DNA of 64,000 nt from Rhodotorula mucilaginosa (Eukaryota > Basidiomycota > Microbotryomycetes > Sporidiobolales > Sporidiobolaceae), in assembly GCA_034406715.1 (NCBI GenBank), contig CP137866.1, forward strand, positions 310,001 to 374,000, given 5' to 3'. A model generated the notes under the pieces. It was not told the DNA's origin, searched no databases, and saw nothing but the letters and a program-made list of their open reading frames with translations. The translations under genes and the position numbers were made by a program. Positions 6,763 through 12,968 of the stretch are shown one piece after another (the first letter of the stretch is position 1; every line of letters starts with the position of its first letter).

Positions 6763-8642
6763 TCAAACTCGGTTGTACGAAACGTGGTCGAAATACTCTG
6801 CGGTCGGCTTGGTTTCGCCGACCGTGCCGGGCGAGAAACCTTGCTTCGCCGACTCGGACGAGTAGTTGGTACGAACCGGGGTCAAGTTCGAAAGGAGGTC
6901 CTCGATCCGGGACAGGCGCGCCTTGACTTCGCGCGTGTCGTTGATGAGTTCGCCGCCGGCGACCATGCCGCCTTGCTCGTTCTCGGGACCACCGATGAGT
7001 CCTCCTCCGAGACCGGTCGCTTCGACCTTGTGCGCCTTCTTCTTCTTGTTCGCCGTGCCAGTCTCGGCACCCTCGGCGCCTTCTCCCTCCAGCTGCGCCG
7101 TCTCCTTGTTCTTGCCGAGAGAGCCGATCGGCTCCGGGGTCGTCTTCAGCTCGAGCCACTGCACATCCGTCGCAAGAAAACGGGAGTGTGAGCGACATAT
7201 ATAGAAGATCTTTTGAAGAAGAGATCGCGCTCAGCTGACCTTGAGGAGACGGTAGAAACCGGCCGCGACCCCTGCGCCGAGGAAAGGTCCTCTAGAGGCA
7301 GCATCGGCGTCAGTTGCGGCAACTTCATTCGGGAGACAACAGTACGTACAGGAAATAAATCCACGTATATCCGCTGAAGGTCAGCGCAATGACGTCTGGA
7401 CCGAGAGTTCGCGCAGGCTGTCGGAAGTCAGGCTGGTCAGCACACTCTGGCTGCGCGAGCTTTTGTCCAGTTTGTCGCGCCCCCGACGGTCCGCATTGTT
7501 GCTCGATCTGTTGTCCAGCTTGTGGCACTCACGTTGAGGGACCCGCCGGTAAAGGATACTGCGCAGAAGGGGCTGTCAGTACTCAGGGATCTCGAGGAAA
7601 AGGGAAATCTCCAACGCACCGGACGCGAGTTCGGCAACGAATAGAGCCAGACCGATCGGGAGAGGGGCGATGAAATTCGAGCTATGCTTCTCAGCGGCCA
7701 CCAGGAGGCTGTGTGTGTATATGGTGAGCGTCCCGGTCAATTTGGTCCGAAGGAGAACAACTCACATGACGAGCATGAGGAGCGCAGTGCACGCCGCTTC
7801 GAGGAACAAGCCGCGCGTGATGCTCATCCCCTCGGCGAGCGTAGTGCGGACGTTGAGCTGACCGGGAGTCATGCAGCTGACGAGACCGGCCGCAGCCAGT
7901 CCTCCGAGGAATTGCATGAAAGTGAGGATGGCGGCACGAACCGGGCTCATTGCGCCGACGAGCAACAGTCCGAGGCTATTCGGGACGGCATATGCGTCAG
8001 CTACTCGTCTCCAAAGACATCAGATGAGCGAGGAGTTTCTCGGTCGAAGATGAAAAAGACGAGCAAAGGGAAAACTCTCAGCGTACGAGACGGCGGGGTT
8101 GTACAGGCTCCCCGAGACGCGACTCATGCACCAGGCGGTGGCGGTCAGGGACATGCCGAATGCAAAAGCAATGTAGAGCACTGTGCAGCAGCGCAGGGCG
8201 GTGAGCATGCGATTGTCCCGAAGGTTTGCAACAGATTCGGTAGTTGTCAACTCACGGCTGGACGTGTTGACGGTAGATACAGTAGATCCATTGAGCCCGG
8301 AGGTGGTCTGGCCAGTGATGGAGTTTGCCGGCGAGTTGGCGACACTGGAAAGGGAAGAAGGAAGATGGGAAAGGGGACAAGGGAAAAAAGATCAGTTGCC
8401 CGCCCGCCGCGATCGACAAGGGCAGTACAGGTGCCGGCAGACGTACTGAGTACCAGCAAAAGCAAAGAACAAGAAGAGCGTGGTGCCGACGAACTGCCCC
8501 GACAGAAAGAGCAGCGGGTCAGTTTGTGCCGAGGCGGAAACAACGTCGTACTCACTTCGCCCAGCGCTGCGACCAAGTGACTCTTGATAACGAGACTCCG
8601 ACTGCCGAGCTGGCGCAGCGGTACGATCACCTTCTCGGACAT
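6763..8642 (-). CDS. Aquaporin 1 (MIP family)
   Basis: Membrane water channel of the MIP family. The start at 8642 gives MSEKVIVPLRQLGSRS and an 87-nt first exon (8556-8642). Exons join to give the usual six-helix layout with two NPA boxes: SLYNPAVS near 8090 and SLN|PART near 7400-7540, where the intron falls just after the Asn codon (AAC|GTGAGT). An Arg follows the second NPA and there is no Asp after it, which suits an orthodox water channel rather than an aquaglyceroporin. The C-terminal tail (about 6763-7164) is hydrophilic, with a KKKK cluster, and is probably cytosolic. Intron positions match those of the paralogue at 11039-12968. Family identification is strong; substrate is inferred from motif only. 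Confidence 0.9.
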
Positions 8643-11038: not shown

Positions 11039-12968
11039 TCAAGTCGAACGGGTCGCCTCCGCCTTTTCCGTCATGGAGTTGAACGTAGGACGGAACGCGA
11101 CGGTGTCGCCAGAGAGGCGGCGATCAAGCTCGTGGACTCCGTTCTCGCCTTCGAGATGGACCAGGATCGAGGTCATCATGCCCTGGAGGTGGTCCATCTT
11201 CTTGAACAGGTCGCTCGGATCGGCGAGCGGCCCGGGGCGGTTCTCGAGATAGGCATCTTGGGAGCGAAGCATCCCTTGGCCGAAACCCGTCGCCTCGACG
11301 GGAACTCCCCCTTTCGGCTCGACACGCTCGGTCCCCGTCTCCACCCTGATATCGCGGTCCTTCGGGTGACGTGCCTCGGCACCGTCGACGTCTTTGGCGA
11401 GAACGGTCTCGTATTCGAGAAACTTGATCAGACGGTAGAACAGGGCCGCGACGGTCGCTCCGAGAGCTGGCCCACTTTTTGAGAGGGGGGTTAGTGGAGA
11501 GATCTACCGTCGAGACGAGCGGGCAGATGGGGAATTAAACGGACAGAAAGTAAATCCAGGTGTAGTTCTCGAAGGTGTGCAAGACGACGTCGGGGCCGAA
11601 GGTACGGGCGGGCTGCGACTCGTGAGCTGGTAAGAGCGAAACATCATATCCAGCCGAAACCGGTGTAGCGGCAACTTACGCTGCGCGTGCGATAGTCAGC
11701 TTTCGTCGGAAGTCGTGGAGCACACGGCGAGCGGCTTACTTGAGAGAACCGCCCGTCCAGTAAACTGTGTAGCTCTAGAGATCAGTCAAAGTGACGGATA
11801 AGATTCACGTCAAGGGGAAGAAACGCACCCGAGGCAAGCTGCGAGATGAAAAGAGCCAAACCGATCGGGAGAGGCGCCTGATACGTGACGCGCGACTTCT
11901 CCGCGGCGAGCAACAAGATCGCAAGCATGCTGCCTCATGGAGCAGGCGAATCAGCGCAAACTTGTCCGAAGCTTGCAGCGGCGAGAAGACCGCGAAAGTT
12001 TCCAGGGCTGCTTACAGGAGGGCAGTCATCGCCGCTTCGAGGAACAAGCCGCGAGAGATGCTCATGTCCGGGGCAAGCGTCGTGCGCACGTTGAGCGTCC
12101 CTGTAAAGCGGGAAACATCAGCCGCCAGAGCTCGCGCGAGCCGGGTGTTTTTCTCGGTCGAGACTCACCCGGCGTCAAGGCGTCAAGGATCGCAGTGCCA
12201 ACGATCCCGCCGAGGAGCTGCACAAACGCGAGAATCGCCGCACGGAGAGGACTCAGAGCGCCGACGAGGAGCATTCCCAGGCTGAACCTAAGCGGAGTGG
12301 CGGTTCATCAGCATCTTTTCCCCGTCTCCATCCCTCCCGGAAGTGGAGGTTCCCACTCACGTGATCGCAGGATTGAACAGTCCGCCGCTGACCCGGAAGA
12401 AGACCCAGGCGGTGACGGTGAGCGAGATGCCGAAGCCGAAAGCGATGTCTGCCCGACAAGCTCGATCAGTCGGCGCACACGGGCTCGGACGACCTCGGTC
12501 TGCAGCTCACACAAGACTGTGAGGTGTATACTAGCGGTCAGCCTACGTCGACTTGAGTCAGAATCCGTCGTCGACGTACGGTTGCTCGTGTTCGAAGTTT
12601 GCGCCGTCGAGCCAGCTTGCCCGGCAGCGGTGATACCAGTGACGGACGTGCTCGGAAGGTGGGCGATGCTGCCGTTCGGAGTGTTAACTCGAGGCTCCAC
12701 GACTCGGGGAGCTCAAGATGTGCGTACTTGGCTGCGCTGAGGGCGAAGAGCAGGAAGAGCGTCGTCCCGACGAACTGTCGCGGCAGAGTTTTGGGCAACG
12801 GTCAGTGCACCAGCTTCTTTTGCTGCAAGAGACTCACAGCACCGTGACGGAGTGGGGGAGGCTCACCTCTCCAAGCGCAGCCACGCAGTGGTTCTTGACC
12901 GCGAGACCGCGCGAACCGTACCTCGTTTTCTTGATCTGCCAGCTGAACGGGTGCCCGCGGGTCGGCAT
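11039..12968 (-). CDS. Aquaporin 2 (MIP family), with 6-nt and 1-nt microexons
   Basis: Paralogue of the aquaporin at 6763-8642: the first exon ends in VAALGE and the next begins FVGTTLFL in both, at the same intron position. NPA boxes are GLFNPAIT (exon 12361-12448) and SLNPART. Reconstructed exons include 12867-12968, 12728-12774, 12580-12668, 12511-12516 (6 nt, TCTTGT), 12361-12448, and from 12287 down. The NPA2 Asn codon is spelled AA (exon ending at 11740), C (single base 11680), then CCC GCC CGT from 11612. The two microexons restore LLYIAFGFG and SLNPAR exactly as in the paralogue. The C-terminal tail is about 140 aa, hydrophilic and ends ATRST. This looks like an orthodox water channel by motif. 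Introns are 59-73 bp. Confidence 0.87.
11680..11680 (-). other. Putative 1-nt microexon in aquaporin 2
   Basis: On the minus strand the bases read GCGCAG|C|GTAAGT. The 59-bp intron 11681-11739 (GTAAGC...CTGAC...GCGCAG) precedes the C and the 67-bp intron 11613-11679 (GTAAGT...CGCAG) follows it. Joining AA + C + CCC gives Asn-Pro of the second NPA box. I tried the other AG acceptors in this stretch: each gives the wrong frame or runs into a stop. Confidence 0.75.
12511..12516 (-). other. Putative 6-nt microexon in aquaporin 2
   Basis: On the minus strand the bases read ACAG|TCTTGT|GTGAGC. Flanking introns are 12517-12579 (63 bp) and 12449-12510 (62 bp). Joined product C+TC TTG T+AC gives Leu-Leu-Tyr, matching LLYIAFAFG in the paralogue, where the same stretch is uninterrupted. 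Confidence 0.75.

Follow-up and report, generated by a model that had tools for sequence, protein, structure and literature searches.

One-base exons have been described in nuclear genes of plants and fungi. In Arabidopsis, APC11 encodes a ubiquitin-ligase subunit, and its one-base exon, lying in a 422-nt intronic stretch, was demonstrated with cDNA and reporter constructs (PMC4674806). The one-base microexon of VPS55 is conserved across land plants (PMC8831610). In Fusarium, the single-nucleotide exon of CYP621A supplies the central G of a glycine codon in 20 orthologues, with support from SRA reads. The authors count it as the second such exon known and the first from a fungus, and propose that it arose when an exonic base close to a splice site was lost and a cryptic AG-N-GT in the intron was taken up (PMC12940212). 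Besides APC11, the plant microexons and CYP621A, mitochondrial one-base exon cases are also found in the literature. A related arrangement is the stwintron, in which a splice element of one intron is broken up by the other, with no base retained between the two (PMC5639578). Passages of PMC3990503 contain nothing on one-base exons. None appeared in the titles and abstract starts of the open-licence literature on microexons in fungi or Basidiomycota; judged likewise by title or abstract start, the matches listed included nothing relevant on Rhodotorula mucilaginosa aquaporins. Functional one-base exons are rare indeed, as the original prediction for the present locus held, with the precedents APC11 and VPS55 in plants and CYP621A in Fusarium.

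The window, a stretch of 64,000 nt, comes from an R. mucilaginosa genome of 20.35 Mb in 19 contigs. Position 11680 is very probably a genuine exon of one nucleotide in a working basidiomycete aquaporin gene, according to the splicing predicted from the DNA. When the exons were joined and re-read on the minus strand, the predicted coordinates, bases and lengths of the two short introns proved exact (Table 1). In the second NPA box the asparagine codon is divided: AA closes the exon that ends at 11740, C stands at 11680, and the next exon opens with CCC at 11612. Altogether 127 nt separate the exon encoding VYWTGGSL from the one encoding PARTFGPD. The window also contains a paralogue in which, as predicted, this codon is whole (CTCAAC/GTGAGT) and followed by a single intron.

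Table 1 Features of the aquaporin locus and of the neighbouring paralogue, in window coordinates
Feature	Position	Strand	Remarks
Aquaporin gene (aquaporin 2), MIP family, 11 coding exons, 384 codons	11039-12968	-	Pfam PF00230; JCM8115 P0001
25-nt exon, ends ..TCT CTC AA (AA: positions 1 and 2 of the NPA Asn codon)	11740-11764	-	
59-nt intron, GTAAGC..GCGCAG	11681-11739	-	branch-point match CTGAC 15 nt from intron end
Predicted exon of a single nucleotide: C, position 3 of the Asn codon in the second NPA box	11680-11680	-	sole SLNPARTFG path; context GCGCAG/C/GTAAGT
67-nt intron, GTAAGT..TCGCAG	11613-11679	-	branch-point matches CTTAC (18 nt) and CTCAC (10 nt from end)
68-nt exon, starts CCC GCC CGT, Pro-Ala-Arg of the second NPA box	11545-11612	-	
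Paralogous aquaporin, ancestral layout	6763-8642	-	whole AAC codon, then one 115-nt intron (7532-7418)

Joined together, the 11 exons translate into an uninterrupted reading frame. The protein matches Pfam PF00230 (MIP) with 150.7 bits against a cut-off of 25, and its closest solved relative is 2w1p (E 1.9e-52). Along with this domain it carries the two NPA boxes of an aquaporin, LFNPAIT and SLNPART, the second being present only if the one-base exon is used.

We enumerated the splice paths across the junction, starting from a fixed first donor at 11739 and allowing either acceptor of the preceding intron; introns had to measure 40 nt or more, and no more than two could lie in the stretch. This gave 48 GT-AG paths. 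Six stay open to the native stop, three with the one-base C and three without it. SLNPAR results from a single path of the 48, the one through the one-base exon; when the search was relaxed to accept GT or GC donors, again just one path led to SLNPARTFG. The C at 11680 is needed for the motif, while the frame alone is also kept by five other paths. The claim that other acceptors fail by frame or by a stop was thus too strong: what fails in all paths but one is the SLNPAR motif. The companion claim, that the frame is lost without the exon, holds for simple skipping of the C, which leads to a stop at codon 255, but not for the three open paths that lack the C. One of the latter combines an upstream acceptor, CTCTAG, with a single 127-nt intron; it keeps the frame, reads ELHSLLDGRFSQ-PARTFG and loses the NPA box. 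Another uses a 5-nt exon, CGTAA, and gives SLN-VTHESQ-PAR. These and the remaining open paths were rejected, as they destroy the NPA motif. Among other microexons whose length is 1 modulo 3, the sole candidate between the fixed exons (13 nt, GC donor) holds a stop. The 25-nt exon is preceded by two acceptors 10 nt apart, CTCTAG and CTACACAG (window 11765-11774). Retention of the first intron brings an immediate stop (SLK-stop) and retention of the second a stop 11 residues later; since the retention and skip products all run into stops, splicing errors should be unproductive.

Splice sites were scored with a weight matrix from the other 17 introns of both window aquaporin genes, those 17 being scored leave-one-out. 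The C has usable sites on both sides: the donor GTAAGT after it scores 9.33 bits (rank 1 of 18) and the acceptor GCGCAG before it 5.36 bits (rank 9 of 18). The outer sites are the donor GTAAGC of the first intron, at 7.53 bits (rank 12 of 18), and the acceptor TCGCAG of the second, at 4.40 bits (rank 13 of 18). For the competing paths, the donor GTTGCC of the 5-nt exon scores -6.23 bits, and the acceptors CTCTAG and CACGAG 2.24 and -1.81 bits. YTNAY was taken as the branch-point motif; both short introns contain matches to it, and 18 of 19 introns overall have one in the scanned range. Elsewhere in the gene, intron 10 (window 11475-11544) has an unusual donor, GTCCGT, and the acceptor AAAAAG.

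Chance expectation was estimated from 100,000 dinucleotide shuffles of the intron interior; the figures carry no correction for the choice of this place out of 64 kb. An AG-Y-GT by itself, each half being 45 nt or longer, arises in 7.6% of shuffles and is not rare. The frequency falls to 0.25% for CAG-Y-GTRNG, to 48 in 100,000 (0.048%) when YTNAY branch points are also required in both halves, and to 0.02% for CAG-Y-GTRAGY. The window itself contains six instances of CAG-Y-GTRNG, one of them on the minus strand. As far as the DNA can tell, the C at 11680 completes the second NPA box, as predicted: it provides the sole path to SLNPAR, with sites and branch points that are ordinary to strong.

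In three paralogues of this genome the asparagine codon is whole and is followed by an intron at the corresponding site (CTCAAC/GTGAGT, 115 nt; CTCAAT/GTGCGC, 92 nt; CTTAAT/GTGCGC, 113 nt). The C5 and C7 paralogues have SLNPAR or SVNPAR and no intron at that site, and the NPA motif scan found no match in the C4 and C9 loci. A further observation concerns another aquaporin paralogue (L013 5256-5312, C3 near 706.8 kb): it has an in-frame TGA soon after the second NPA box (PARSFGPDVVLHEFAGYH-stop), where relatives have tryptophan, and the JCM8115 model P0008 omits the stretch.

In a tree of the two window proteins with 21 database proteins, chosen from 225 collected, aquaporin 2 groups with P0001 and P0007 (100/100), on a long stem branch of 0.38. 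SLNPAR is found in 18 of these 21 fungal relatives; the exceptions are P0001 and P0007, the orthologues of aquaporin 2, and P0116. The last, from R. mucilaginosa C6P46, differs from the neighbouring aquaporin of the window only within residues 206-229, where its model omits an exon. This is the 26-nt SLN exon of the normal paralogue (window 7533-7558), and the window DNA is ordinary there.

A search with the C-terminal piece gave short ORFs of relatives. One of these, P0121, comes from a public contig of up to 60 kb; its frame runs from the end of the second intron straight into the following exon, in the phase of the window (MFRSYQLTSRSPPVPSAP). Judged by this ORF, the 3' part of the second intron is conserved in that relative. 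The N-terminal piece brought no further orthologue in the best 120 of 302 matches. Among the matches listed there was no aquaporin 2 orthologue from strains C6P46 or CCFEE 5036 and, in the protein searches, no apparently transcript-derived protein of aquaporin 2. No related locus in viral contigs was confirmed, and a 19-base pattern matched two bacterial sequences in genome contigs (L022, L023), taken as chance.

Alignment of aquaporin 2 with P0001 from R. mucilaginosa JCM8115 shows identity at 380 of 384 residues, with 8 further gap columns; the differences are the substitutions T15P, S160N and M374I and a replacement of LLY for H that keeps the frame. The latter lies at window 12448, at the start of exon 4, where JCM8115 has LLY and both the window and JG-1b have H, as would fit an in-frame 6-nt indel. 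Against JG-1b, substitutions were counted by hand, setting aside the misannotated stretch, residues 1-3 of P0007 and the paralogue's C-terminal tail: aquaporin 2 has 7 in about 222 comparable residues, the intact paralogue 8 in about 234. By this count, constraint on aquaporin 2 is similar to that on the intact paralogue. Relative to the window paralogue, dN is 0.45 and dS 1.16 over 361 codons; beside the junction dN is 0.18 and 0.24 and dS 1.43 and 1.57, from just 9 and 40 codons, respectively. These figures fit purifying selection, with the reservation that dS is high and the stem branch long. In sequence comparison, exon 8 is kept in the VYWTGGSLN reading frame.

A second assembly, that of JCM8115, bears on the missing base through its annotated protein, P0001, which reads SLN-VTHESQ-PAR. 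Exactly one path produces this from the window DNA: the 5-nt exon CGTAA, starting at the C of 11680, followed by the acceptor TACCAG. With a C restored at the exon end, the same protein needs a GC donor, AA/GCCGCT, although a plain AAC/GTAAGC is available. Because the annotation makes little sense with the base present, JCM8115 likely does not have it either; the sensible reading would be that the gene finder could not build a one-base exon. In JG-1b, again judged from annotated proteins, the model P0007 does not include the SLN exon, and the paralogue is annotated normally. This gap would point the same way; we give it little weight, since P0116 shows that a gene finder can also skip the homologous 26-nt exon of the normal paralogue. 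Read in this manner, both orthologue models found, P0001 and P0007, are wrong at the junction.

Could the exon-end base simply be missing from the assembly? The real gene would then read AAC/GTAAGC (CTCAACGTAAGC) where the window has CTCAAGTAAGC, and a single ordinary intron of 127 nt would follow. Single-base gaps do occur in assemblies, a control with the base added gives SLNPAR through this one intron, and its length is about that of the paralogue introns. However, a well-formed C with acceptor, donor and branch points would then be a coincidence seen in 48 of 100,000 shuffles, the JCM8115 protein would call for a GC donor with AAC/GTAAGC lying four bases upstream of it, and the JG-1b model also fails at the junction, its paralogue being annotated normally. 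An assembly or sequencing error is therefore an unlikely cause of the split codon, on the evidence of these sequences. If the base is truly missing and the C unused, the frame might be kept through CTCTAG with the 127-nt intron, through the 5-nt exon or through a path giving SLN-SQ-PAR, each with an altered second NPA box. Such paths are open to the native stop, and one of them equals the JCM8115 annotation; but they break a motif retained by most of the chosen relatives, depend on the weak sites GTTGCC, CTCTAG and CACGAG, and are at odds with the conservation of exon 8 in its frame. We regard this as very improbable.

Nor does the gene resemble a pseudogene in which the base was lost without rescue and the C is a chance match. 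The premature stop of the C-skipping product and the long stem branch would agree with this, and the TGA soon after the start of the NPA exon in the C3 paralogue indicates that decay occurs in the family; yet the 11 exons join without a stop, the differences from JCM8115 amount to three substitutions and one frame-keeping replacement, and divergence from JG-1b is at the level of the intact paralogue. A pseudogene thus has hardly any probability. The one-base-exon reading is supported by the sole path to SLNPAR, by good splice sites and branch points, and by a second assembly that points to the same missing base.

The sequence, splice-site quality, path uniqueness, paralogue states and sequence constraint are observed here; how the gene is really spliced, in which order, and how the one-base exon arose we infer. 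The two short introns would be removed one after the other, by intron definition, since the first acceptor and the second donor, one base apart, can hardly be bound together. If the first intron left first, the intermediate CTCAAC/GTAAGT..GCAG/CCC would be arranged like the ordinary intron of the paralogues; with the second removed first, an ordinary acceptor, GCGCAG/CCCC, would remain. The mature mRNA junction would read CTCAACCCCGCC and the skip product CTCAACCCGCC.

As three paralogues have a whole codon and one intron of 92-115 nt, the ancestor likely had AAY and a single intron, in a state of the form AAY/GTRNGY..AG/CCN, and aquaporin 2 would lack the last exonic base. The loss probably took place on the branch leading to the R. 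mucilaginosa gene, with an intronic C then recruited: lying inside the old intron, with a usable acceptor and an excellent donor, the C would have repaired the codon, the frame and the NPA box together. The alternative origin is that a new intron of 59 nt was inserted. We mildly prefer base loss, the total of 127 nt being closer to the paralogue introns than the 67-nt remainder. It is a rather unlikely proposition that the exon is young and confined to the R. mucilaginosa gene, capturing the birth of a single-nucleotide exon, and that partial skipping may set the amount of functional channel. Were it true, loss of a boundary base would have been followed by recruitment of a cryptic intronic one, with the parent intron kept in three paralogues, and splicing would be forced into two steps, skipping making a one-base difference invisible on a gel.

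Confirmation would add aquaporin 2 to APC11, VPS55 and CYP621A as a nuclear gene with a one-base exon. It lends itself to a direct test of how the spliceosome copes with acceptor and donor one base apart, since the single intron persists in three paralogues of this genome. The two orthologue models also illustrate how annotation conceals one-base exons. The exon is of a known kind, and perhaps the first in a basidiomycete in the open-licence literature. With stwintrons the locus shares two short fungal introns at one site and the need for consecutive splicing (PMC5639578); a stwintron reading was rejected, as both donors are whole, neither intron breaks up a splice element, and SLNPAR depends on keeping the C. 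As in APC11, one base flanked by AG and GT is required for the frame, but here it lies in a 127-nt stretch and is predicted from the sequence (PMC4674806). Like the VPS55 microexon, it has a strong GTRAGT donor, was missed by annotation and is present in one copy but absent from a duplicate; unlike it, it is predicted for one yeast gene and, probably, its closest orthologues only (PMC8831610). The likeness to CYP621A extends to one base between two short introns of a fungal nuclear gene, completion of a codon in a conserved motif and the same proposed origin. CYP621A is an ascomycete P450, whereas here the predicted exon gives the third base, C, of an asparagine codon in a basidiomycete aquaporin whose paralogues retain the ancestral intron (PMC12940212).
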